A stretch of DNA of 64,000 bases from Rhodoglobus sp. Lineage in GTDB: Bacteria > Actinomycetota > Actinomycetes > Actinomycetales > Microbacteriaceae. The notes beneath the pieces were generated by a model, which searched no databases, was not told the DNA's origin, and saw only the letters and a list, made by a program, of their open reading frames with translations. The DNA lies in assembly GCA_025463515.1 (NCBI GenBank), contig JAODAQ010000040.1:1-64000 (forward strand), in the 5' to 3' direction. The first letter of the stretch is position 1. Every line of letters begins with the position of its first letter. The translations under genes were made by a program, and so were the position numbers. Below, piece by piece: positions 5,322-28,666 of this stretch.

Positions 5322-5404
5322 GGGTTGAGCAGGCCCGCCAGGGCGGTATCGACACCAGTGGCACGACGGTTTCGATACGGGCGCCAGAGCGCCCTACTCA
5401 ACCC
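5322..5404. repeat. Palindromic interspersed repeat, copy 1 (diverged)
   Basis: Begins GGGTTGAGCAGG and ends CCCTACTCAACCC. The outer arms are complementary, and the centre carries the family's TATCGA...TCGATA core (GGTATCGACACC and GGTTTCGATACGG). It matches four other copies in this window. This copy is the most diverged: the left arm has GAGCAGG instead of GAGTAG, and GACACC instead of GAAACC. It lies in the divergent gap between the ABC permease and the response regulator. Confidence 0.85.
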
Positions 5405-6201: not shown

Positions 6202-7688
6202 CGCGGCGCCTCACTCTGCGCCGGCGGCTCGTGCTCGGCATCGTCGCACTCCTCGCCGCGGTCACGATCGTGATCGGCGTGGTGAGCGTGCTCGCACTGC
6301 AGGGCTTCCTCGTGGCGCGGCTCGACACCCAGCTCCTCGCGGCCACGAACCGCTCGCAGGACGTGTTCGACGGCCACGGCGGCGGCCCCGGCTTCCCGGG
6401 CAGCCGTCCGCCGCCCTCGACGCTCCTGAACCTCCCGGGCCAGCGCACCGGAACGCTCGCGGGGACCATCAGCGGCACGGATGCCTCGCAGGCCGCAGTC
6501 CTCGGCGAGGGCGCCACCGCCGAGGCCCTGGACGCCGCTCAGCTCGCCGTCCTCCTCGCCCTGCCCGCCGACGGGATGCCCCACAACGCCGACCTCGGCG
6601 AGGGCCTGGGCACGTACCGCGTCATCGTGCAGGAGCCGTCGGCCGAGGGCGACTCGCTCGTGATCGGGCTCTCCCTCGCGGACGTGCAGGCGACCGTGTG
6701 GCAGCTCATCGCCCTCGTCGCCGGCATCGGCCTGTTCGGCGTCGCGGCAGCGGCGGTCGCGGGCGTGCTGGTGGTGCGCGCCGCCCTCCGGCCCCTCGAG
6801 CGGGTCGCGGCGACCGCCACCCGTGTCTCCGAGCTCCCGCTCGACCGCGGCGAGGTCGCCCTCGCCGTGCGCGTGCCGGAGGCCGATGCGGACCCGAGCA
6901 CCGAGGTCGGCGCGGTCGGCTCGGCTCTCAACCGCATGCTGGGGCACGTGGCATCCGCGCTCGAGGCCCGCCAGGCGAGCGAGAACAAGGTGCGCACCTT
7001 CGTCGCGGACGCGAGCCACGAGCTTCGCACGCCGCTCGCGTCGATCCGCGGCTACGCCGAGCTCACCCGCCGGGGCAACCACGAGCTCCCCGAGGACGTC
7101 GTCCACGCGATCGGCCGCGTCGAGTCGGAGTCGGTGCGCATGACCGCCCTGGTCGAAGACCTGCTGCTGCTCGCCCGCCTCGACGAGCACAACCCGCTCG
7201 AGACCCTCGACGTCGACCTCGGGCGGCTGCTCGTCGACGCCGTGAGCGACGCCCGGGCATCCGGCCCCGACCACACCTGGGCGCTCGACGTGCCTGACCA
7301 CCCGGTGCTCGTGCGGGGAGATGCCTCGAAGCTGCACCAGGTCGTCGCGAACCTGCTCGCGAACGCGCGGACCCACACGCCCGCGGGCACCACCGTCACA
7401 GCCTCGCTCACGGCGAGCGGCACGGACACCGTCATCGAGGTCGCGGACACGGGGCCCGGCATCGACCCGGCGCTCGTCCCGACGGTCTTCGAGCGCTTCG
7501 TGCGCGGGGATGGCTCGCGCTCGCGCGCCTCGGGCAGCACGGGTCTCGGCCTCGCCATCGTCACCGCCGTGGTCGAGGCGCACGGCGGCCGGGCCGAGGT
7601 GGAGAGTGCGCCCGGGCGCACGGTGTTCCGCGTCATCCTGCACTCGGGCACCGGGGTCGCACCGTCCCCGGTGCTCCCGGCCCACTGA
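6198..7688 (+). CDS. Sensor histidine kinase (HAMP, HisKA, HATPase)
   Basis: A 496-residue membrane kinase whose ATG overlaps the regulator's stop. Helix one spans about residues 10-35. An extracytoplasmic sensor of about 120 residues follows, containing a Gly/Pro stretch ([14 protein letters not shown]), then helix two at about 172-198 and a HAMP linker. The H-box is ASHELRTPL with the phosphoacceptor at His274. The catalytic domain has an N-box ([14 protein letters not shown]), a G1 box (DTGPGID) and a G2 box ([10 protein letters not shown]). It is the partner of the upstream OmpR-type regulator, and the signal is unknown. Confidence 0.93.
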
Positions 7689-13900: not shown

Positions 13901-13987
13901 GGTTGAGTAAGGCGCTCTGGCGCCTGTATCGAAACCGGTTGCGCGCGTTCGAGGTTTCGATACGGCCCTAGAGGGCCTACTCAACCC
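13901..13987. repeat. Palindromic interspersed repeat, copy 2
   Basis: Runs from GGTTGAGTAAGG to CCTACTCAACCC with the GTATCGAAACC...GGTTTCGATAC core pair. The right arm, read on the minus strand, supplies the TGA stop of the LacI gene (GGGTTGA). Confidence 0.9.
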
Positions 13988-17873: not shown

Positions 17874-18850
17874 GTGCCGTTACCCCGATCGATCTCCCCA
17901 TCGACACGAAGACCAAGAAGCAGCTCGCCCGCGGCGAGAAGGCCCTCGAGCGCTCGCTCGTGCGGAACACGAAGAACAAGCTCACGAGCAAGGGCGCTAC
18001 GACGGCCGCGATCATCATCGCGATCCTGTGGACCACGCCCACCCTCGGCCTGCTCATCACCTCGTTCCGCCCGCCGGAGCTGATCAACACGTCGGGCTGG
18101 TGGACGATCTTCACCAACCCCGGCTTCACGATCAGCAACTACCAGGCGGTGCTGGGCGGCGAGGCCACCACGGTGAGCCTCGGGCAGGCGTTCATCAACT
18201 CGATCGCCATCACCATCCCGGCATCGATCTTCCCGCTCGTGATCGCCTCGCTCGCGGCGTACGCGTTCGCCTGGATCCCGTTCAAGGGGCGCAACATCCT
18301 GTTCATCGGGGTGTTCGCACTGCAGGTGGTGCCGATCCAGATGGCGCTCGTGCCCCTGCTGAGCCTCTTCTCGCGCGGCCTCAAGATCGGCGGCGTGGAG
18401 GTCTTCGACGGCCTCGGCGCGGGCGGCAACTCGTACGGGCAGATCTGGATCGCCCACACGATCTTCGCCCTGCCGCTCGCGATCTTCCTGCTGCACAACT
18501 TCATCAGCGAGATCCCGCACGAGCTCATCGAGGCGGCGCGAGTGGACGGGGCCGGCCACGGCCAGACCTTCTTCCGCATCGTGCTCCCGCTCGCCATGCC
18601 CGCGATCGCGTCCTTCGCGATCTTCCAGTTCCTCTGGGTGTGGAACGACCTGCTGGTAGCCCTCGTCTTCGCGGACGGCGCGGTCGGGCCGATCACCAAG
18701 GTGCTCCGCGAGATCACGGGCAACCGCGGCCAGGACTGGTACCTGCTCACGGCCGGTGCCTTCGTGGCCATGATCGTGCCGCTCATCGTGTTCTTCGCGC
18801 TGCAGCGGTTCTTCGTGCGCGGCCTGCTGGCGGGGTCGACGAAGGGCTAG
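17870..18850 (+). CDS. CUT1 sugar ABC transporter permease (MalG/AglG-like)
   Basis: A 326-residue permease. A 45-residue charged cytoplasmic N-terminus precedes the first helix. SFRPPELINTSGWW is typical of AglG-type proteins. The EAA loop reads ELIEAARVDGAGHGQTFFRIVLP. Its ATG overlaps the upstream permease stop. It is the last gene of the operon, and the palindromic repeat copy 3 begins 13 bases after its stop. Confidence 0.9.
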   Translation: MSAVTPIDLPIDTKTKKQLARGEKALERSLVRNTKNKLTSKGATTAAIIIAILWTTPTLGLLITSFRPPELINTSGWWTIFTNPGFTISNYQAVLGGEATTVSLGQAFINSIAITIPASIFPLVIASLAAYAFAWIPFKGRNILFIGVFALQVVPIQMALVPLLSLFSRGLKIGGVEVFDGLGAGGNSYGQIWIAHTIFALPLAIFLLHNFISEIPHELIEAARVDGAGHGQTFFRIVLPLAMPAIASFAIFQFLWVWNDLLVALVFADGAVGPITKVLREITGNRGQDWYLLTAGAFVAMIVPLIVFFALQRFFVRGLLAGSTKG

Positions 18851-18862
18851 TCAGGACCCGGC

Positions 18863-18952
18863 GGGTTGAGTAGTGCGCTCTGGCGCGCGTATCGAAACCT
18901 CACGTTCGCGGATGTGAGGTTTCGATACGGCCGCGGGCGGCCTACTCAACCC
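18863..18952. repeat. Palindromic interspersed repeat, copy 3
   Basis: Begins GGGTTGAGTAG and ends CCTACTCAACCC. The central arms GTATCGAAACCTCAC and GTGAGGTTTCGATAC are perfectly complementary over 15 bases. It lies between the CUT1 operon and the ABC exporter gene. Confidence 0.92.
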
Positions 18953-18976
18953 GCTTCGCGGTCGTAGGGTGAAGCA

Positions 18977-20827
18977 ATGAGCGGGATGCACGGGGGAGGC
19001 GGCGGCGGCCGCAATCGCGTCAGCGGGGGCGACGCGGCGGCGCAGAAAGCAGCCAACGCCACGGCGCCGAAGATCCCCGACCTGCTGAAGCGCATCGCGC
19101 AGCTGTTCTCGCCGCACCGCAGGGCGCTCACCACGACGATCATCCTCGTGCTGATCAGCGCCGGCATCAGCGTGCTGCCCCCGCTCATCACTAAGGAGCT
19201 GTTCGACAGGGGCCTCTTCCCGGCGGGCGGCCCGGATATCCCGGTGCTGGCGGAGCTGGTCACGGCGATCGTGGTGCTCCTGGTCGTGTCGGCCGCGCTC
19301 GGCGTCTGGCAGACCTGGCTCACGGCCAATGTCGGCAACAAGGTCATGGGCGCCCTGCGCATCCGGCTGTTCGGCCACCTGCAGGCGATGGAGCTCGCCT
19401 TCTTCACGCGCACGAAGACCGGCGTCATCCAGTCGCGGCTGCAGAACGACGTGGGCGGCGTGGCCGGGGTCCTCAGCAACACGATCTCGAGCGTGATCGG
19501 CAACACCGTGACGGTGATCGCCGCGTTCGTGAGCATGCTCGTGCTGAGCTGGCAGCTCACGGTGGTGGCGGTCATCCTGCTGCCGGTCCTCGTCATCGCG
19601 CAGCGCAAGGTCGGGCAGGTGCGGGCGCGCATCGCGACCAAGACGCAGGAGTCGCTGAGCGACATGACCGCGATCACGCAGGAGGCGCTGAGCGTGAGCG
19701 GCATCCTGCTCGCGAAGAGCTTCAACCAGCAGCAGGCCGAGACCGCGCGCTACGAGGCGGAGAACCAGAACCAGATCTCGCTGCAGGTGCGGCAGCAGAT
19801 GAGCGGCCAGTGGTTCTTCGCGATGGTGAACATCTTCCTGTCGATCATCCCCGCGGTCATCTACATCGTCGCCGCGTACCTCATCACGGGCGGGGTGGAT
19901 GTGACGGCCGGCACGATCGTCGCCTTCACGACCGTGCAGGCGCGCCTCATGTTCCCGCTGCTCGGGCTCCTCCGGGTCGCCCTCGACCTGCAGACCTCGT
20001 CGGCCCTGTTCGCCCGCATCTTCGAGTACCTCGACCTCGTGCCCGCGATCACCGACCGGCCCGACGCGCACGCCGTGCGACCCGAGCAGCTCGGCCGTAT
20101 CGAGTTCGACGACGTCGTGTTCCGGTATCCGGATGCCCCGCTCGACAGCCCCGCGACGCTCAAGGGCGTCTCCTTCACGATCGAGCCGGGGCAGTTCGCC
20201 GCGTTCGTGGGGCCGTCCGGTGCGGGCAAGACCACGGTGAGCTACCTCATCCCGAGGCTGCACGACGTGACCGACGGCAGGGTGCTGTTCGCCGGGGACG
20301 ACGTGCGCGGGCTCGAGGCCGACTCCCTCGTGCGCAACATCGGGATCGTGAGCCAGGAGACCTACCTGTTCCACGCGACGATCGGCGACAACCTGCGCTA
20401 CGCGAAGCCGGAGGCGACCGCCGAGGATCTCGTGACCGCGGCGAAGGCGGCCAACATCCACGACACGATCGTGTCGTTCCCCGACGGCTACGACACCGTC
20501 GTGGGGGAGCGGGGCTACCGCCTCTCGGGCGGCGAGAAGCAGCGCATCGCGATCGCGCGCGTGCTGCTCAAAGACCCGGCGGTGCTCATCCTCGACGAGG
20601 CCACGAGCGCCCTCGACTCCATCTCGGAGCGGGTGGTGCAGGAGGCGCTCGACACCGCCTCGCGGGGCCGCACCACGATCGCGGTGGCGCACCGGCTCTC
20701 GACCGTGGTCGACGCGGACGTCATCTTCGTGGTCGTGGCGGGCAAGGTGGTCGAGCACGGGACCCACGCCGAGCTCCTCGCGGGCGACGGCATGTACTCC
20801 GCCCTCTACGCGCAGCAGGTGCAGTAG
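18977..20827 (+). CDS. ABC exporter, fused membrane and ATPase domains (MsbA/LmrA type)
   Basis: A 616-residue half-transporter. A Gly-rich cytoplasmic N-terminus precedes six helices (about residues 50-330). The ATPase domain has Walker A GPSGAGKTT, Q-loop SQETYLF, signature RLSGGEKQR, Walker B VLILDEATSALD and switch His in VAHRLST. Such proteins export lipids, peptides or drugs as homo- or heterodimers; there is no adjacent partner, so a homodimer is likely. The cyclase-like gene starts 26 bases downstream and may be co-transcribed. Confidence 0.93.
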   Translation: MSGMHGGGGGGRNRVSGGDAAAQKAANATAPKIPDLLKRIAQLFSPHRRALTTTIILVLISAGISVLPPLITKELFDRGLFPAGGPDIPVLAELVTAIVVLLVVSAALGVWQTWLTANVGNKVMGALRIRLFGHLQAMELAFFTRTKTGVIQSRLQNDVGGVAGVLSNTISSVIGNTVTVIAAFVSMLVLSWQLTVVAVILLPVLVIAQRKVGQVRARIATKTQESLSDMTAITQEALSVSGILLAKSFNQQQAETARYEAENQNQISLQVRQQMSGQWFFAMVNIFLSIIPAVIYIVAAYLITGGVDVTAGTIVAFTTVQARLMFPLLGLLRVALDLQTSSALFARIFEYLDLVPAITDRPDAHAVRPEQLGRIEFDDVVFRYPDAPLDSPATLKGVSFTIEPGQFAAFVGPSGAGKTTVSYLIPRLHDVTDGRVLFAGDDVRGLEADSLVRNIGIVSQETYLFHATIGDNLRYAKPEATAEDLVTAAKAANIHDTIVSFPDGYDTVVGERGYRLSGGEKQRIAIARVLLKDPAVLILDEATSALDSISERVVQEALDTASRGRTTIAVAHRLSTVVDADVIFVVVAGKVVEHGTHAELLAGDGMYSALYAQQVQ

Positions 20828-20853
20828 CCCACTCCTGTGGCTAAAGTGAACGA

Positions 20854-23031
20854 GTGTCATTCACCCCGCCCCCCGCGCAGGGCTCGATAGTGCTTCCCGG
20901 CGCCGGCACCAGGGCGGGGCTGAGCATCCGGTCGATCCTGCTCATCATGCTGCTGCTGGTGAGCGTCGCGTCGAGCGTGGTCGTGGGGCTGATCGGCTAC
21001 GTCAACGGCCGTGAGTCCTTGCAGGACGCCGCGTACAGCCGCCTCATCGAGGTGCGCGACTCGCGGGCGCGCGAGATGCAGGACCTGTTCGACACCATCC
21101 AGAGCACGCTGCTGCTGAGCGCGCGCGGCGACAGCGTTCGCGAGGCGGTGCAGGCGTTCTCCACCGGGTTCGCCGAGCTCGAGGAGGGCGGCCTGAGCGC
21201 CGACGACCGCGCAGCCCTCGAGCAGTACTACACCGACACTTTCGGCCCCGAGCTCGCGGAGGCGACCGGCCAGACCGTGGACGCCTCGACGCTCGTGCCC
21301 ACCGACCCCGCGCAGGCCTACCTCGAGCTGCACTACACCGTGCCGCCGGCCGACTTCGACGCGGCCCTCGCGGTCGACGACGCGGGCGACGGCAGCGCGT
21401 GGTCCGAGGCGCACGTTCGCTATCACGACTACTTCCGCCGGATGACACAGCTCTTCCAGTACGAGGACGTGCTGCTGCTCGACACCCAGGGCAACGTCGT
21501 GTACTCGGCGTACAAGGGCGTCGACCTCGGCAGCAACCTCGACACCGGACCGCTGCACCGCACGAACCTCGCGACGGCCTACGCCCAGGCGCTCACCGGC
21601 AACGTCGCGGACACGGTGGTGTTCACGGACTTTGCCGCCTATCCGCCGTCACTCGGCGTGCCCGCCGCGTGGGGAGTGACCCCGGTCGCGGTCAACGGCA
21701 CCATCGTGGGCGCGCTCGCCGTGGAGCTCCCGGTCGACGCGATCAACCAGGTCATGACCGGCGGCGGGGACTGGGAGGCGAGCGGCCTCGGCAAGACCGG
21801 CGAGACGTACATCGTCGGCGCTCAGGACAACCTCATGCGGTCGGCCTCCCGCGACCTGATCGAGCACCCGGACGACTACGAGCGCCTCGCGATCGAGGCT
21901 GGCACCCCGCCGGAGGCCGCGCGCCTGGCGGTCGAGACGCAGAACACGCTGCTCGTGCAGCCGGTGCGCACGGATGCCGTGAGCGATGCGTCCGAGGGGC
22001 AGACCGGCACGACCCTCGCGATCGGCTACCTCGGCAGCGAGACGATTGCTGCCTACGCCCCGCTCAACCTCGACGGGCTCGACTGGGTGATCGTCGCCGA
22101 GATCGACAGCGCCGAGGCCTTCGCGCCGGTGGACGTGTTCACGCGCAACCTCGTGCTGTCGTCCGCGATCATCGTGCTCGTCGTCTCGCTGCTCTCGCTC
22201 ATCATCGCCGGGATCATCGTCCGGCCGCTGCGCCGACTGCGCGACGCCGCCCGCCGGATCGCCGCCGGCGAGCAGGGGGTCCAGGTCGACGCGGGGACGA
22301 GCGACGAGCTCGCCGACGTGGGCGCGGCCTTCAACGACATGAGCCGCAGCCTGCAGGTCAAGGCCACTCTGCTCGAGGAGCAGCAGGCCGAGAACGAGCG
22401 GCTGCTGCTCTCGCTCATGCCCGAGCCGCTCGTGAAGAAGTACAAGGAGGGCGCGCAGACGATCGTGCTCGACCACCAGGAGGTGTCCGTGCTGTTCGCG
22501 GACATCGTCGGCTTCGAGGCGTTCAGCCACGCGATGCCCTCCGAGGAGGCCCTCGAGAAGCTCAACGAGATCATCCGCGCGTTCGACGACGCCGCCGACA
22601 AGCACGGGGTGGAGCGCGTGCGCACCACCCGCGCCGGCTACCTCGCGAGCTGCGGCCTGACTATCCCGCGCGTCGACAACGCCCGCCGCATGGTCGACTT
22701 CGCCATGGAGCTCGAGCGCATCGCGGAGCGCTACGGCGGCAAGCACGGCGCCCCACTGAGCATTCGCGCCGGCATCGACACCGGCCAGGTCACGAGCGGG
22801 CTCGTCGGGCAGACCCACATCGCGTACGACCTCTGGGGCGACGCCGTGAACCTCGCGTTCCAGCTTCAGGGCACCAACCGCGAGTCCGGCATCTTCCTCA
22901 CCCAGCAGGTCGTCGACCGGATGCCCGACACCGTCCATGTGCGCGACTGGGGCTTCGTCAACACCGCGTCCGGGCCGCAGAAGGTCTGGCGGGTGGATCC
23001 CGACGACGTGCACGCCGGGGTCGAGGCGTGA
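20854..23031 (+). CDS. Membrane sensor protein with degenerate class III nucleotide cyclase domain
   Basis: A 725-residue protein with a GTG start. Helix one (about residues 25-52), a large extracytoplasmic Cache-like sensor (about 55-430), helix two (about 433-458), a HAMP domain with a short coiled coil, then a cyclase domain (about 540-705). The first metal Asp is present (Asp550 in LFADIVGFEAF). The second, expected exactly 44 residues on as in GDAY, is Ala594 (RTTRAGYLA); the purine-site Lys position is Arg590; Asp659 and Asn666 are kept (YDLWGDAVN); the transition-state Arg position is Gln670 (NLAFQ). Normal catalysis is therefore doubtful. The stop overlaps the MscS gene (GTGA), so the two act together. 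Confidence 0.9.
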   Translation: MSFTPPPAQGSIVLPGAGTRAGLSIRSILLIMLLLVSVASSVVVGLIGYVNGRESLQDAAYSRLIEVRDSRAREMQDLFDTIQSTLLLSARGDSVREAVQAFSTGFAELEEGGLSADDRAALEQYYTDTFGPELAEATGQTVDASTLVPTDPAQAYLELHYTVPPADFDAALAVDDAGDGSAWSEAHVRYHDYFRRMTQLFQYEDVLLLDTQGNVVYSAYKGVDLGSNLDTGPLHRTNLATAYAQALTGNVADTVVFTDFAAYPPSLGVPAAWGVTPVAVNGTIVGALAVELPVDAINQVMTGGGDWEASGLGKTGETYIVGAQDNLMRSASRDLIEHPDDYERLAIEAGTPPEAARLAVETQNTLLVQPVRTDAVSDASEGQTGTTLAIGYLGSETIAAYAPLNLDGLDWVIVAEIDSAEAFAPVDVFTRNLVLSSAIIVLVVSLLSLIIAGIIVRPLRRLRDAARRIAAGEQGVQVDAGTSDELADVGAAFNDMSRSLQVKATLLEEQQAENERLLLSLMPEPLVKKYKEGAQTIVLDHQEVSVLFADIVGFEAFSHAMPSEEALEKLNEIIRAFDDAADKHGVERVRTTRAGYLASCGLTIPRVDNARRMVDFAMELERIAERYGGKHGAPLSIRAGIDTGQVTSGLVGQTHIAYDLWGDAVNLAFQLQGTNRESGIFLTQQVVDRMPDTVHVRDWGFVNTASGPQKVWRVDPDDVHAGVEA

Positions 23032-24461
23032 CCCAGTTCTGGCTCCAGCCCTGGTTCTGGCCGGCGGTCGGCGTCGTCATCGGGCTGCCCGTCGTGCTGC
23101 TCGTGCTGACCGAGGTGCAGAGCATGCTCGAGCGGCGGGGGAGCCGCGCGACGCGGATCATCCTGCTGCTGCGCAACTACGTCGCGCCGGTGGGGGCACT
23201 CCTGCTCCTGTTGAGCCAGGCGCAGTACGCGAACATCGAGCTCACCTGGACGCGCGTCGTGGCGACCGTGTTCGGGTTCCTCGTGATCCTGGTCCTGCTC
23301 AACACCCTCAACTTCGCGCTCTTCGTGACCGCGAAGGAGGGGACGTGGCGCAGCAAGATCCCGTCGATCTTCGTGGACATCGTCCGGATCATCCTCATCA
23401 TCGTCTGCCTCGCGGTGCTGTTCTCCGCGGTGTGGAACGCCGACGTCGGCGGACTGTTCGCGGCGCTCGGCGTCGGCTCGATCGTGATCGGGCTGTCGCT
23501 GCAGAACGCGGTCGGCTCGATCGTGACCGGGCTGCTGCTGCTGTTCGAACAGCCGTTCCAGCTGGGGGACTGGCTCGAGGTCAACGGGACGCGCGGCCGG
23601 ATCGTCGAGGTCAACTGGCGGGCCGTGCACATCAAGACCTCGCGCGGCGTGCTCGTGATGCCCACGGCGTCGCTCGCGGAGTCGGCCTTCCTCAACCTCA
23701 GCCGCAAGCCCACGCCGTTCGAGTTCGACATCGTCGTGAAGTTCTCCACGGATGACGCCCCTCAGGACGTGATCGACGTCTGCACCCGCGTCGCCGCCGA
23801 CCTGCCGGCTGCCGTTCCGGGTGAGGTCGCGACGATCACCCCGATGCCGAAGGCGAAGTACGAGGTCGAGGTCGCGATCAACAGCCCTGCGGACAACGCG
23901 ACGTCGATCGGCATCTTCCGCAAGCGCCTCTGGTACGCCGCCCGCCGGGCCGACCTGCACCTCGACGGCGACCTCACGGACAACTACAACACCGCCGCCA
24001 ACATCGAGGCGGCGGTCCGCCGGGTCGCTCCCGCCCTGTACCTCACCGCCGAGGACGTGCTCGTCGTCGCCACCCAGGCCCGCCTCGAGCGCTGGGGCGA
24101 GGGCGAAGTCGTGCAGCATCCGCTCACCGTTCCCGACGGCATGCGCTACATCGTCGAGGGCGCGGCCCAGCTCGCGACCCCGATCGAGACGGGCGCCGAG
24201 GTGCGCTTCGCCGCCCTCGACCGCGACGACGTGATCGGCCTGACCGCCCTCACGCGGCAGGGAGTGTCCGCGCGCATCACCGCGACGACCGACCTCGCGG
24301 TGCTGTTCGTCCCGGTCGCCGTGCTCGACGGCCTCGTGAAGTCGCGGCCGAAGCTCGCCCGCGACATCGGCCAGGAGATCGACAACCGCCGCACGCTCGC
24401 CTACGCGGCGCTGAGCGCCGCGGGCGTGGACGTACCGGCGGGATCGCGCATGATCGCGTAG
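23028..24461 (+). CDS. MscS-family channel with C-terminal cyclic-nucleotide-binding-like domain
   Basis: A 477-residue membrane protein. Four predicted helices (about residues 7-165) lead into the MscS pore and beta domain (GLFAALGVGSIVIGLSLQNA, then GLLLLFEQPFQLGDWLEV). The last 130 residues resemble a cNMP-binding beta-roll (LTVPDGMRYIVEGAAQL; DVIGLTAL; SARITATTD). The phosphate-binding Arg is present (Arg416), but the glutamate that normally contacts the ribose is Leu in IGLTAL. This layout matches the bacterial cyclic-nucleotide-gated branch of MscS. It is translationally coupled to the cyclase-like gene, which suggests a local ligand-gating pair. Confidence 0.88.
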   Translation: MTQFWLQPWFWPAVGVVIGLPVVLLVLTEVQSMLERRGSRATRIILLLRNYVAPVGALLLLLSQAQYANIELTWTRVVATVFGFLVILVLLNTLNFALFVTAKEGTWRSKIPSIFVDIVRIILIIVCLAVLFSAVWNADVGGLFAALGVGSIVIGLSLQNAVGSIVTGLLLLFEQPFQLGDWLEVNGTRGRIVEVNWRAVHIKTSRGVLVMPTASLAESAFLNLSRKPTPFEFDIVVKFSTDDAPQDVIDVCTRVAADLPAAVPGEVATITPMPKAKYEVEVAINSPADNATSIGIFRKRLWYAARRADLHLDGDLTDNYNTAANIEAAVRRVAPALYLTAEDVLVVATQARLERWGEGEVVQHPLTVPDGMRYIVEGAAQLATPIETGAEVRFAALDRDDVIGLTALTRQGVSARITATTDLAVLFVPVAVLDGLVKSRPKLARDIGQEIDNRRTLAYAALSAAGVDVPAGSRMIA

Positions 24462-24465
24462 CGCC

Positions 24466-24587
24466 GGTTGAGTAGCGCGCTCTGGCGCGCGTATCGAAAC
24501 CGGATGCCCGCGCGGGCAGGTTTCGATACGGCCGCGGGCGGCCTACTCAACCCGCCGATACGGCCGCGGGCGGCCTACTCAACCCGC
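24466..24587. repeat. Palindromic interspersed repeat, copy 4, with duplicated right half
   Basis: A complete copy at 24466-24553 (GGTTGAGTAG to ACTCAACCC) is followed by a second, exact copy of its right arm at 24556-24587 (from CGATACGG to CAACCCGC). It starts 4 bases after the MscS stop and ends at the stop codon of the convergent DUF305 gene, so it fills the whole gap. Confidence 0.93.
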
Positions 24588-25276
24588 TAGGACCGGGCCG
24601 CGAGCATCTCCTGCATCACCGTGATCTCGCTGGTCTGCGCGTTCACGATGCTCGTCGCGAGGTCGACCACCACCCGGTTGCGGCTGCGGTCGAGCACGGC
24701 CTGCGCCATCTCGACGCCGCCCTGGTGGTGGGCGATCATGAGCGTGAGGAAGATCCGCTCGGCCTCGACACCGGTCGCGGCCTTGAGGGAGGCGATCTGC
24801 TCCGCGGTCGCGAGCCCCGGCATGGTCGCGCCGGGGGCGATCGGCGACATGTCCATGTCGTGGCCGCTGCCGCCCTCGAGGGTCGGGCGGGTCATCCAGG
24901 TCATCGAGGGCTCGGACGGCGCCTGCGAGAGCCCCCAGTCCGCGAGCCAGCCGTACATCTGGCCCGACTGCTGCGCCTGCGAGGTCGCGATGTCGTAGGC
25001 GAGGGTGCGGACATCCGGATCGTCCGTGAGGTCGCGCACGATCAGCGCGAGCTCGACGGCCTGGTTGTGGTGCACCTGCATGTCGCGGGCGAAGCCGGCC
25101 TCGACGCTGTGGTCGAGGGGGCTGTCGTCCCCCGGCGCGCTCAGTCGGCCGATGACGAGGGATGCCGCGACCAGCAGCAGCGCCATGAGCACCGCCGCGA
25201 CCGCGAGCCGGGCACGCCGGCCGGGGTCGCTCGCTGCCTCTCGGGCCGCGTCGACCGCCGCCTGGTCGCGGTCCAC
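24587..25276 (-). CDS. DUF305 family protein, membrane-anchored
   Basis: A 229-residue protein with one N-terminal helix (about residues 25-45). The extracytoplasmic part carries the two DUF305 His-rich signatures, MQVHHNQAVELA and MIAHHQGGVEMA, each on a helix, separated by a Met/His/Asp-rich insert (GHDMDM). The fold is ferritin-like, and metal binding is often proposed for the family. It follows the DUF3105 gene by 4 bases on the same strand. The C-terminal stop abuts the palindromic repeat. Confidence 0.88.
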   Translation of the reverse strand: MDRDQAAVDAAREAASDPGRRARLAVAAVLMALLLVAASLVIGRLSAPGDDSPLDHSVEAGFARDMQVHHNQAVELALIVRDLTDDPDVRTLAYDIATSQAQQSGQMYGWLADWGLSQAPSEPSMTWMTRPTLEGGSGHDMDMSPIAPGATMPGLATAEQIASLKAATGVEAERIFLTLMIAHHQGGVEMAQAVLDRSRNRVVVDLATSIVNAQTSEITVMQEMLAARS

Positions 25277-25280
25277 CGAC

Positions 25281-25949
25281 TCAGGCGATCTTGCCTGGGG
25301 CGTCGAGGCCGCCGGTGCACGGGGCGCCGGGCTCGGGAGCGGTCGTGGCCTTCCAGAACTTCGTGATGAACTGCTGGATGCGGGGGTCGTCCACTCCGTC
25401 GAGCTGCACCTGGGCAGACCAGGCGGAGATCACGACGGGGGCCGGGAGGCCAGGGTACGGCGACACGACCGCGTAGGTGGAGGGCGCCTCGCTCTGCAGC
25501 TTCGACACCTCGTCAGCGCTCAGGGCCTCGGGGTCGTAGGTGATCCACACGGCGCCGTGCTCGAGGTCGTGCACGGCGTTCTCGTTCGGGACGGGCTCGC
25601 TGTAGATGCCGCAGTTGAGCCAGGTGGCGTTGTGGTTGCCGCCCGCGGGCGGGTCCATACCGTAGTCGGCCTTGTAGTCCACCGTGCCGTCGACGTGCGT
25701 GGCGGTGAGTTGGCCGAAGGTCTTGAGACCCTCGATCTCGATGGAGCTGGGGTCGGGCTTGGGCGTCGAGCCGACGATGACGAACGTCACGATGAGCGCG
25801 AGCACGAGGACACCGCCGGTGATACCGCCGATCAGGCCGATGCGCTGGTTGCGCTTCTGCTTCGCCATCTGCTTCTGCATCTGCGCGACCTTTTCCGCCC
25901 GGCGGATATCGCGCTGCTGCTTGACTGTCGGTTTCGAGGGGTCGGGCAC
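25281..25949 (-). CDS. DUF3105 family membrane-anchored protein
   Basis: A 222-residue protein read from the GTG at 25949, chosen because AGGAA lies about 6 bases upstream; a TTG at 25988 is the alternative. A basic, Gln-rich cytoplasmic N-terminus (RRAEKVAQMQKQMAKQKR) precedes a helix (about residues 37-62). The extracytoplasmic domain has the DUF3105 pattern: GMDPPAGGNHNATWLNCGIY, VHDLEHGAVWITYDP and SPYPGLPAPVVISAW. The conserved His/Cys residues might bind metal; the function is not established. It probably forms an operon with the DUF305 gene. Confidence 0.88.
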   Translation of the reverse strand: MPDPSKPTVKQQRDIRRAEKVAQMQKQMAKQKRNQRIGLIGGITGGVLVLALIVTFVIVGSTPKPDPSSIEIEGLKTFGQLTATHVDGTVDYKADYGMDPPAGGNHNATWLNCGIYSEPVPNENAVHDLEHGAVWITYDPEALSADEVSKLQSEAPSTYAVVSPYPGLPAPVVISAWSAQVQLDGVDDPRIQQFITKFWKATTAPEPGAPCTGGLDAPGKIA

Positions 25950-26069: not shown

Positions 26070-27434
26070 ATGAAGTACGCCAACACCGTCATCGACCTGG
26101 TCGGCAACACGCCCCTCGTTCGGCTCAACAGCGTGACCGAGGGGATCGCCGCGACGGTGCTCGTCAAGGTCGAGTACCTGAACCCGGGCGGCTCCTCCAA
26201 GGACCGCATCGCCACGCGCATCATCGACGACGCCGAGGCCAAGGGGCTTTTGAAGCCCGGCGGCACCATCGTCGAGCCGACGAGCGGCAACACCGGCATC
26301 GGGCTCGCCCTGGTCGCCCAGCAGCGCGGCTACCGCTGCGTGTTCGTGCTGCCGGACAAGGTCGGGGAGGACAAGCGCAACGTGCTCCTGGCCTACGGCG
26401 CGGAGATCGTGGTGACACCCACGGCGGTCGAGCCGTCGAGCCCCGAGTCGTACTACTCGGTGTCCGACCGGCTGGCCCGGGAGATCCCAGGCGCGTTCAA
26501 GCCCAACCAGTACTCCAACCCGAACGGCCCGCTCAGCCACTACGAGACCACCGGTCCCGAGATCTGGGCGGACACCGAGGGCAAGGTCACGCACTTCGTC
26601 GCGGGCGTCGGCACCGGCGGCACCATCAGCGGCGTCGGCAAGTACCTCAAGGAGGTGTCGAACGGCGCGGTCCGGATCATCGGCGCCGACCCCGAGGGCT
26701 CCGTGTACTCGGGCGGCACCGGCCGCCCCTACCTCGTCGAGGGCGTCGGCGAGGACTTCTGGCCGACCGCCTACGACCCGACAGTGGTGGACGAGATCAT
26801 CGCGTCAACGGACGCGGAGTCGTTCGACTTCACCCGTCGGCTGGCCCGCGAGGAGGGGCTGCTCGTCGGCGGATCGAGCGGGCTCGCCGTGGCATCCGGT
26901 CTCAAGGCCGCCAAGGACCTGGGCAAGGACGACGTCATGGTGATCCTGCTGCCGGACGGCGGCCGCGGCTACCTGGGCAAGGTCTTCAACGACAAGTGGA
27001 TGCGCAGCTACGGCTTCCTCTCCGACACCCAGGAGCGCACGGTCGGCGACGTCATCAAGACGAAGACCGGAGAGCTGCCCGACCTCGTGCACGTACACCC
27101 CACCGACACCGTGCGCGACGCGATCGAGATCATGAGCAAGTACGAGGTCTCGCAGATGCCCGTGCTGACGGCGGAGCCGCCCGTCGTGATGGGCGAGGTG
27201 ATCGGCGCGATCGACGAGCGGTCCCTCCTCGAGGCCGTGTTCAACGGCGGGGCGAAGATGACGGACGCCATCCGGGAATTCGTCGGCAAGCCCCTCGGTT
27301 TGATCGGTGTGCACGAGTCGCTGAGCGCAGCGCGTGCAGCGCTGGCGAGCACGGATGCCCTCCTCGTCACCAACGACGGCAAGCCGGCAGCGGTGCTCAC
27401 CCGGCACGACCTGCTCACCTTCCTCTCCGAATAA
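26070..27434 (+). CDS. Cystathionine beta-synthase
   Basis: A 454-residue PLP enzyme condensing serine (or O-acetylserine) with homocysteine. The PLP lysine is Lys44 in GGSSKDRIA; the phosphate-binding loop is GTGGTISGVGKYL; the substrate loop is EPTSGNTGIGLA. The N-terminal catalytic domain (to about residue 320) is followed by a pair of CBS domains (about 335-450). Length and domain order match actinobacterial CBS rather than plain cysteine synthase (about 310 residues). The next gene starts 7 bases downstream and completes reverse transsulfuration. Confidence 0.93.
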   Translation: MKYANTVIDLVGNTPLVRLNSVTEGIAATVLVKVEYLNPGGSSKDRIATRIIDDAEAKGLLKPGGTIVEPTSGNTGIGLALVAQQRGYRCVFVLPDKVGEDKRNVLLAYGAEIVVTPTAVEPSSPESYYSVSDRLAREIPGAFKPNQYSNPNGPLSHYETTGPEIWADTEGKVTHFVAGVGTGGTISGVGKYLKEVSNGAVRIIGADPEGSVYSGGTGRPYLVEGVGEDFWPTAYDPTVVDEIIASTDAESFDFTRRLAREEGLLVGGSSGLAVASGLKAAKDLGKDDVMVILLPDGGRGYLGKVFNDKWMRSYGFLSDTQERTVGDVIKTKTGELPDLVHVHPTDTVRDAIEIMSKYEVSQMPVLTAEPPVVMGEVIGAIDERSLLEAVFNGGAKMTDAIREFVGKPLGLIGVHESLSAARAALASTDALLVTNDGKPAAVLTRHDLLTFLSE

Positions 27435-27441
27435 GGACCCC

Positions 27442-28599
27442 TTGACCGACTACGCCTTCCCCACCCGCGCCATCCATGCCGGGCAGGAGTTCGACCCCAC
27501 CACCGGCGCTGTCGTGCCCCCGGTCTACCTCACCTCCACGTTCGTGCAGGACGGCATCGGCGGCTTCCGCGGCGGCTACGAGTACGCCCGCGGCGGCAAC
27601 CCGACCCGCGACTCCCTGCAGGAGCTTCTCGCCTCCCTCGAGGGCGGCCTCAAGGCCTTCAGCTTCGCGTCCGGCCTTGCCGCTGAGGACACGCTGCTGC
27701 GCGCCGTACTGAAGCCCGGCGACCACGTCGTCATGGGCAACGACGTCTACGGCGGCACCCACCGCCTCGTCAGCCGCGTGTTCATCCCGTGGGGCGTCTC
27801 GCTCTCGACGGTCAACATGAGCGACCTCGACGCGGTGCGCGCGGCGATCCGGCCGGATGCCACGAAGGTGCTGTGGATCGAGACGCCGAGCAACCCGCTC
27901 ATGAAGATCAGCGACATCGCTGCTCTCGTCGCGATCGCGAAGGAGTCGGGAATCCTCGTCGTCGTCGACAACACCTTCGCCTCGCCGTACCTGCAGCAGC
28001 CGATCTCGCTCGGTGCCGACGTCGTCGTGCACTCGACCACCAAGTACCTCGGCGGCCACTCGGACGTGCTCGGCGGCGCGGTCATCGTGAACAGCGAGGA
28101 GCTCGCCGAGAAGGTCGGATTCCTGCAGTTCGGGGTCGGCGCGGTCTCCGGCCCGATGGATGCCTGGCTCACCGTCCGCGGCATCAAGACCCTGGCCGTG
28201 CGCCTCGACCGGCACTCCTCGAACGCGCAGTCGATCGCGGAGAAGCTGGTCGGCCACCCCAAGCTCGACGCCGTGTACTACCCGGGCCTGCCCGACCACC
28301 CCGGCCACGACATCGCCGCGACGCAGATGAAGGCCTTCGGCGGCATGATCTCGGTCGCGGTCAAGGGCGGCGTCGGCCCGGCCAAGAAGTTCGCGGAGTC
28401 GATGGAGCTGTTCCAGCTCGCCGAGTCGCTCGGCGGCGTCGAGTCGCTCGTCTGCTACCCGTCGGAGATGACGCACGCGTCGGTCCGCGGCACCGACCTC
28501 GAGGTGCCCGAGAACGTCGTGCGCCTCTCGGTGGGCATCGAGGATGTCGACGACCTGACAGCCGATGTTCTGGACGCACTCGACCGGCTGGTTGAGTAG
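27442..28599 (+). CDS. Cystathionine gamma-lyase/gamma-synthase (Cys/Met metabolism PLP enzyme)
   Basis: A 385-residue PLP enzyme with a TTG start at 27442 preceded by AAGGACC. The PLP lysine is Lys201 in HSTTKYLGGHSD; other family motifs are EYARGGNPTRD, FASGLAAEDT and ETPSNPL. Sequence motifs alone do not separate lyase from synthase; pairing with cystathionine beta-synthase favours the gamma-lyase of reverse transsulfuration. The last codons (GTT GAG TAG) lie inside palindromic repeat copy 5, so the C-terminal Val-Glu and the stop are repeat-derived. Confidence 0.92.
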   Translation: MTDYAFPTRAIHAGQEFDPTTGAVVPPVYLTSTFVQDGIGGFRGGYEYARGGNPTRDSLQELLASLEGGLKAFSFASGLAAEDTLLRAVLKPGDHVVMGNDVYGGTHRLVSRVFIPWGVSLSTVNMSDLDAVRAAIRPDATKVLWIETPSNPLMKISDIAALVAIAKESGILVVVDNTFASPYLQQPISLGADVVVHSTTKYLGGHSDVLGGAVIVNSEELAEKVGFLQFGVGAVSGPMDAWLTVRGIKTLAVRLDRHSSNAQSIAEKLVGHPKLDAVYYPGLPDHPGHDIAATQMKAFGGMISVAVKGGVGPAKKFAESMELFQLAESLGGVESLVCYPSEMTHASVRGTDLEVPENVVRLSVGIEDVDDLTADVLDALDRLVE

Positions 28600-28666
28600 C
28601 GCGTTCTGGCGCGCGTATCGAAGCCGGTTGGGGTTTCGATACGGCCCTAGAGGGCCTACTCAACCC
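28590..28666. repeat. Palindromic interspersed repeat, copy 5
   Basis: From GGTTGAGTAG to CCTACTCAACCC with the GTATCGAAGCC...GGTTTCGATAC core. The central loop is the shortest of the five copies. The first ten bases encode the end of the upstream PLP-enzyme gene, including its TAG stop. Confidence 0.92.

Follow-up and report, generated by a model that had tools for sequence, protein, structure and literature searches.

The first 64,000 nucleotides of contig JAODAQ010000040.1 from Rhodoglobus sp. (Microbacteriaceae; assembly GCA_025463515.1), the whole stretch analysed here and called the window, carry a gene pair in which a membrane receptor ending in a class III cyclase fold is followed by an MscS-type channel ending in a domain that resembles a cyclic-nucleotide-binding domain (CNBD). 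Across 117 distinct pairs of this kind, the window's included, the full catalytic set of the cyclase is never present and the canonical nucleotide contacts of the CNBD are lost, and most of the unpaired relatives that were examined have the catalytic set. The reading we put forward, for which we see the case as evenly balanced, is that a pseudocyclase receptor of the dCache-HAMP type controls the opening of its MscS-type partner, either by touching it or through a ligand that it binds.

Both genes start with GTG; they encode 725 and 477 amino acids, respectively, and overlap by the 4 bases that the original prediction had given (Table 1). The Pfam models Guanylate_cyc (5e-32, 111 bits) and HAMP (2e-13) match the receptor over their cut-offs, and its modelled cyclase-fold domain resembles adenylyl and guanylyl cyclase cores in Foldseek searches, which places it in the class III fold. 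Two strongly hydrophobic helices found by hydropathy (residues 28-46 and 438-456), together with HAMP, give the protein a receptor architecture; between the two helices the structure model shows, at good confidence, a domain of mixed helices and strands, and the HAMP stretch was modelled poorly. The dCache_1 match of this region lies below its cut-off in the window (1.5e-8, 34.9 bits against 45 bits); of the full-length receptors, 20/27 match the same model at E<=0.01.

In the channel, MS_channel_2nd matches with 5e-16 and covers the MscS pore and beta domain, while cNMP_binding matches with 2e-6 at 27.9 bits, just above the cut-off of 27.5, hence the MscS-plus-CNBD architecture of bacterial cyclic-nucleotide-gated (bCNG) channels is present. 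The structure model (pLDDT 85) finds MscS, YnaI and MscK as best matches, and residues 344-462 of the family profile can be aligned with CRP, this region also with kinases that depend on cyclic nucleotides. The CNBD region (24054-24443) also gave a weak hit (3.6e-4), far below the cut-off, to the NCBIfam model for the shell proteins of family 2B encapsulins, which likewise carry a CNBD.

Class III cyclases use two metal-binding aspartates, a purine-site lysine and aspartate, and a transition-state asparagine and arginine, which in the numbering of the window's receptor correspond to D550 and D594, K590 and D659, and N666 and R670, written below in order of position as DKDDNR. As originally read, the window has D550, R590, A594 (44 residues after 550), D659, N666 and Q670; thus the transition-state Asn and purine-site Asp are present, while the second metal Asp, the purine-site Lys and the transition-state Arg are not. 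Position 594 aligns, in a hidden Markov model alignment, opposite the residue of mammalian AC9 that we take to be its second metal Asp.

To compare relatives, 154 fetched pairs, which include repeat fetches, were reduced to 116 plus the window by dropping three copies of the window, 27 duplicates, a frameshifted locus (L114), a mis-joined one (L184), one with a partial channel (L102), and five whose extracted channel is interrupted by a stop (L006, L067, L117, L125 and L185); two loci of the distant group described below (L182 and L183) are among the 117 rows. The original prediction would have been refuted by intact residues in most paired relatives, and this did not happen: DKDDNR was found in 0/117, and Asp or Glu at 550 occurs together with D594 in only two. 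Position 659 is Asp in all 117 and position 590 is mostly arginine (R112 H3 K2), position 550 is mostly acidic (D101 E14 T1 H1), and more variation is seen at 666 (N66 S35 T8 D7 V1) and 670 (R74 Q36 A2 L1 K1 S1 V1 G1). At 594 ten different residues were counted (N29 Q26 S19 E16 A9 G6 R4 K4 D3 T1), which ranks it 8th in variability among 145 positions of the cyclase domain; positions 596-598, 601, 605, 606, 608 and 659 vary little or not at all (conserved in 114-117 of the 117 rows). Since 594 varies so much while the surrounding positions are near-invariant, the change there is more than chance. The paired family as a whole has kept the fold with D659 and a YLA..G...PR.D motif and has lost the second metal Asp.

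Unpaired cyclases present a different picture. Nineteen actinobacterial controls were found with the receptor profile, their loci being fetched for the best matches of that search (L218, which is no cyclase, was removed, and L212-L214 belong to pairs), and no channel was found in their fetched flanks of up to ~1.5 kb; DKDDNR is present in 17/19 and both metal aspartates in 19/19. Fisher tests gave 9e-20 for the full set (0/117 vs 17/19) and 3e-21 for the two aspartates (2/117 vs 19/19), computed on related rows that stand for few independent events. Unpaired rhizobial dCache receptors of the same architecture, 32-34% identical over residues 48-690 or more, have DKDDNR in 4/4. Near one of these intact receptors, on plasmid pSinB of Sinorhizobium sp. 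M14, a second annotated cyclase gene lies ~4 kb away (L201 10667-10932). Seven other class III matches in the window's family were fetched and left out of all totals; three of them (L186-L188) keep D550, K590 and D594 in local alignments, and four (L189-L192) gave no alignment to the window's cyclase.

In canonical CNBDs a glutamate of the phosphate-binding cassette contacts the ribose and an arginine contacts the phosphate. The leucine that had been noticed in place of the ribose Glu is Leu405, and Glu occurs in 0/117 at that position and nowhere at 403-407. The statement that the channel keeps its Arg as Arg416 proved to be out of register: a profile alignment to solved CNBDs, consistent with the order of strands in the structure model, puts the canonical phosphate Arg at ~413, which is Val in the window and Arg in 0/117, and R416, three residues further on, is Arg in 34/117. 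Arginine at 411, 412 and 414 was found in 3, 5 and 1 of the 117 channels. The loop has conserved residues of its own (G404 in 114/117, T409 in 99/117, R410 in 108/117 and A419 in 116/117) and hence is a different loop, not a ruin.

The losses in cyclase and pocket are both family-wide and are not matched change by change. On a FastTree tree of the 117 rows, positions 594, 670 and 405 need at least 24, 14 and 16 changes, and co-change of 670 or 594 with 405 gave no signal in tests of low power (8-12 independent pairs each, with 405 rarely differing), so the co-evolution of residues suggested by the original prediction is not supported. Its broader proposal of a ligand-sensing receptor/channel pair whose cyclase domain would produce no nucleotide finds support and now extends, as a probable property, from one locus to the family.

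The pairing itself is strict. In the window's family, 29/199 genomes, counting the window's own, have a full-length channel, after which the match values drop from 2e-96 to 1e-12, and in 29/29 the receptor lies directly upstream. In a GTDB scan, from which the best 80 of 470 relatives were kept, loci came from Microbacteriaceae, Mycobacterium/Mycolicibacterium, one Propionicimonas and other actinobacteria, and a downstream channel match was found in 80/80 (one partial, L102). Among the 154 fetched pairs the genes are <=30 bp apart in 149, with overlaps of 1, 4 or 8 bases in 106. A class scan gave matches in 54/394 genomes, of which nine belong to the window's family, 21 to genus g102 and 24 to genus g117 (these last cover the MscS part only, at ~1e-22), and a phylum scan gave matches in 16/396. 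Genus g102 looks Mycobacterium-like, as alignments of >=400 bases at 71-85% DNA identity link 10/21 loci of this genus with five named loci of mycobacteria, and 95/118 of its genomes have channel matches, of which a few are fragments (G1154, G1180 and G1184). One genome of this genus (G1122) carries a tandem duplication of the whole pair in the order cyclase-channel-cyclase-channel (L198 1382-8603), and in several further genomes at least two channel matches were found. A natural fusion was considered as proof of contact and set aside: the sole in-frame fusion among the 154 pairs, in Leifsonia aquatica (L114, ~6520-6640), arises from a frameshift near the receptor C-terminus that may be a sequencing error, and is weak evidence for that reason.

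This distribution bears on two alternatives. That both genes are decaying or lack a joint function would account for the lost active-site residues and for the 170/199 family genomes without the pair, but near-invariant motifs in distant relatives, strict adjacency and overlap, and the duplication of the pair as a unit in one genome leave it with hardly any credit. Heterodimerisation of the receptor with another, intact class III cyclase would suit M. tuberculosis, for which a 2004 survey gives 17 class III cyclases (PMC2447327), against one in the window's genome (a single PF00211 match, genome 95% complete). In the family, any PF00211 match is found in 34/199 genomes, and the paired cyclase is the sole one in 27/29 pair genomes, G140 and G192 having a second. 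An intact class III partner is thus not seen there, and we regard heterodimerisation as very improbable. The channel domain, in turn, is the only PF00027 match over the cut-off in 20/29 pair genomes (nine have others), and in 20/29 the pair provides both the only class III cyclase and the only CNBD over the cut-off.

In the module as we picture it, a dimeric dCache-TM-HAMP (TM, transmembrane helix) receptor would sense something outside the membrane, and its output domain, of the class III cyclase fold, would have given up two-metal catalysis. This fold would pass the signal to the CNBD-like domain of the channel, either by direct contact or with a ligand bound without turnover, and the signal arriving there would change the gating of the MscS-type pore.

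At four loci of other, distant actinobacterial families (G612, G662, G864 and G1073) the channel is flanked by an upstream receptor A and a downstream receptor B, and neither cyclase fold has the catalytic set in 4/4. Receptors A have K590 and D659 in 4/4 and D594 in 3/4, without D550, N666 and R670; receptors B have none of the six residues except Asp594 in one (B194), and score over the Pfam cut-off for the cyclase domain in 2/2 tested. What looks like a fifth receptor B adjoins a channel fragment (L214, G727). The channel is rare in the class of G612 (2/198 genomes). Catalytic residues have thus been lost by at least two routes, at 594 in Microbacteriaceae and the Mycobacterium-like genus and at 550 in distant actinobacteria. 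The same loci bear on the alternative that the cyclase fold is a binding sensor for a nucleotide or small molecule, reporting e.g. ATP to the channel, much as the forskolin pseudo-site of mammalian adenylyl cyclases binds a ligand. The invariance of D659 and of positions 601, 605 and 608, and the resemblance of the fold to adenylyl and guanylyl cyclase cores, are in its favour, but D659 is lost in 4/4 receptors B, so that binding by the same residues cannot be general, and we consider this alternative rather improbable.

Several observations weigh against a catalysis-free receptor. Acidic residues stand at both metal positions in 18/117 pairs once Glu594 is counted, two loci have nearly complete sets (L014, DRDDNA; L008, ERDDSR), and D/E550 (115/117), D659 and usually R670 (74/117) are retained, which could mean residual or altered chemistry. 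Because several active-site side chains persist, the cyclase may still be an enzyme, making another nucleotide or working by a one-metal mechanism, with the altered pocket of the channel reading its product in a private messenger circuit. R590, fixed in 112/117, the conserved signature of the pocket loop and the 20 genomes in which the pair stands alone would agree with such a circuit. On the other side, any of ten residues (N, Q, S, E, A, G, R, K, D, T) can occupy the second metal position, receptors A of the distant modules are without the first metal Asp and receptors B retain at most one of six residues, and we judge the circuit unlikely, if still the strongest of the alternatives. The comparison with unpaired proteins is weakened by the fact that the 19 actinobacterial controls match by their cyclase domain only and are not dCache receptors, and since the pairs share ancestry the 117 rows amount to few independent events. 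Moreover, of two unpaired proteobacterial channels examined, neither with a cyclase within 4.5 kb, L204 is without both Glu and Arg and L203 keeps Glu without Arg, so that the loss of pocket contacts is not confined to paired channels, in contrast to the loss of the catalytic set, which seems tied to pairing. Finally, the channel is absent from 23/118 genomes of the Mycobacterium-like genus and from 170/199 of the family, and the module is therefore dispensable.

With these points in mind, we suggest more tentatively than the reading for the window a general one: that a catalysis-free cyclase-fold receptor directly gating an MscS-type channel forms a signalling class of actinobacteria, mycobacteria included, which evolved from catalytic dCache cyclases when pairing with a channel made the messenger unnecessary, then lost residues by different routes, and in distant lineages came to flank the channel with two degenerate receptors. 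If this is correct, a cyclase domain would serve as a contact output instead of an enzyme, MscS channels would be able to respond to chemical signals from the cell's surroundings, and the annotation 'adenylate cyclase' would be wrong for a protein that is widespread in the Mycobacterium-like genus, going by the channel matches in 95/118 genomes and by 21 loci in which the cyclase was checked. The intact unpaired rhizobial and the degenerate paired receptors would then offer a ready comparison of how a signalling enzyme loses its messenger.

Table 1. Features of the receptor/channel pair in the window and location of the distant three-gene modules
Feature	Position	Strand	Basis or remark
Receptor gene: TM1, extracytoplasmic dCache-like domain, TM2, HAMP, class III cyclase-fold domain	20854..23031	+	
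TM1, residues 28-46	20935..20991	+	hydropathy
Extracytoplasmic sensor region, residues ~54-420	21013..22113	+	dCache_1 match at 203-415, below its cut-off
TM2, residues 438-456	22165..22221	+	hydropathy
HAMP domain, residues 451-501	22204..22356	+	Pfam; low confidence in structure model
Class III cyclase-fold domain, residues 537-715	22462..22998	+	Pfam 541-690
R590 (purine-site Lys position) to A594 (second metal Asp position)	22621..22635	+	
Overlap of receptor stop and channel start	23028..23031	+	4 bases
MscS-type channel gene with C-terminal CNBD-like domain	23028..24461	+	
MscS pore helix and beta domain, residues 118-226	23379..23705	+	
CNBD-like domain, residues 343-464	24054..24419	+	
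Phosphate-binding-cassette equivalent, residues 404-419	24237..24284	+	no Glu (L405), no Arg at 413
Three-gene modules	L193 1693-7504, L194, L195, L197		second cyclase-fold receptor downstream of channel

Around the pair, an ABC exporter gene (18977-20827) ends 26 bases before the receptor, and CBS-like and MetB-like genes, named by eye, follow downstream (26070-28599); homologues of the three were found in the fetched flanks of 48, 49 and 48 of 80 loci, respectively. REP-like palindromic elements (GGTTTCGATACG ... GGCCTACTCAACC) lie at 24490-24584, 5323-5403, 13925-13986, 18888-18951 and 28614-28665, with 9 and 7 matches at <=1 mismatch against 0.09 and 0.04 expected. No RNA family reached its gathering score in 18500-25500, and a scan of 18800-25400 gave one promoter-like site (9/12) and three opposite-strand terminator-like sites, one of them across the receptor start.

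In the open-licence literature, most subscription journals being outside the scope, no paper was found that describes a degenerate pair as a gating module. The mycobacterial counterpart is presumably Rv2435c/Rv2434c of Mycobacterium tuberculosis. The gene order is shared by the pairs of the Mycobacterium-like genus, which are 39-53% identical to the window's proteins and have Q670 in 21/21 loci, but carry N594 in 21/21 instead of A594; in the five named Mycobacterium/Mycolicibacterium loci N594 was found in 5/5 and Q670 in 3/5. Rv2435c has been assigned a dCache domain (PMC4822843) and is treated as an adenylate cyclase (PMC3961136, PMC3938503). In the 2004 survey (PMC2447327), 'Rv2435c and Rv2434c' appears a single time, as does 'Rv2435c lacks one', so that the degeneracy of this cyclase was probably already noted then.

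The rhizobial dCache-HAMP class III cyclases, e.g. that of Sinorhizobium pSymA, are alike over ~90% of the receptor but differ in their intact set and in having no channel within 4.5 kb (4/4). In Pycsar, a PycC cyclase acts with a CNBD effector. The window's pair is similar in that a cyclase adjoins a membrane protein with a CNBD and the PycC profile matches at 3.9e-8, and differs in its dCache-like sensor and the lost catalytic set; identity with Pycsar was rejected, as the PycC match is weak and stands alone, the channel being matched by no PADLOC model. Closest on the channel side are the bCNG channels (Caldwell et al. 2010 and Malcolm et al. 2012, as cited in PMC4560390), members of the MscS superfamily that carry a cNMP-binding domain, with which the window's channel shares the MscS pore and C-terminal CNBD, and from which it differs in that the ribose Glu and phosphate Arg are gone in 117/117 and its partner is a degenerate cyclase.

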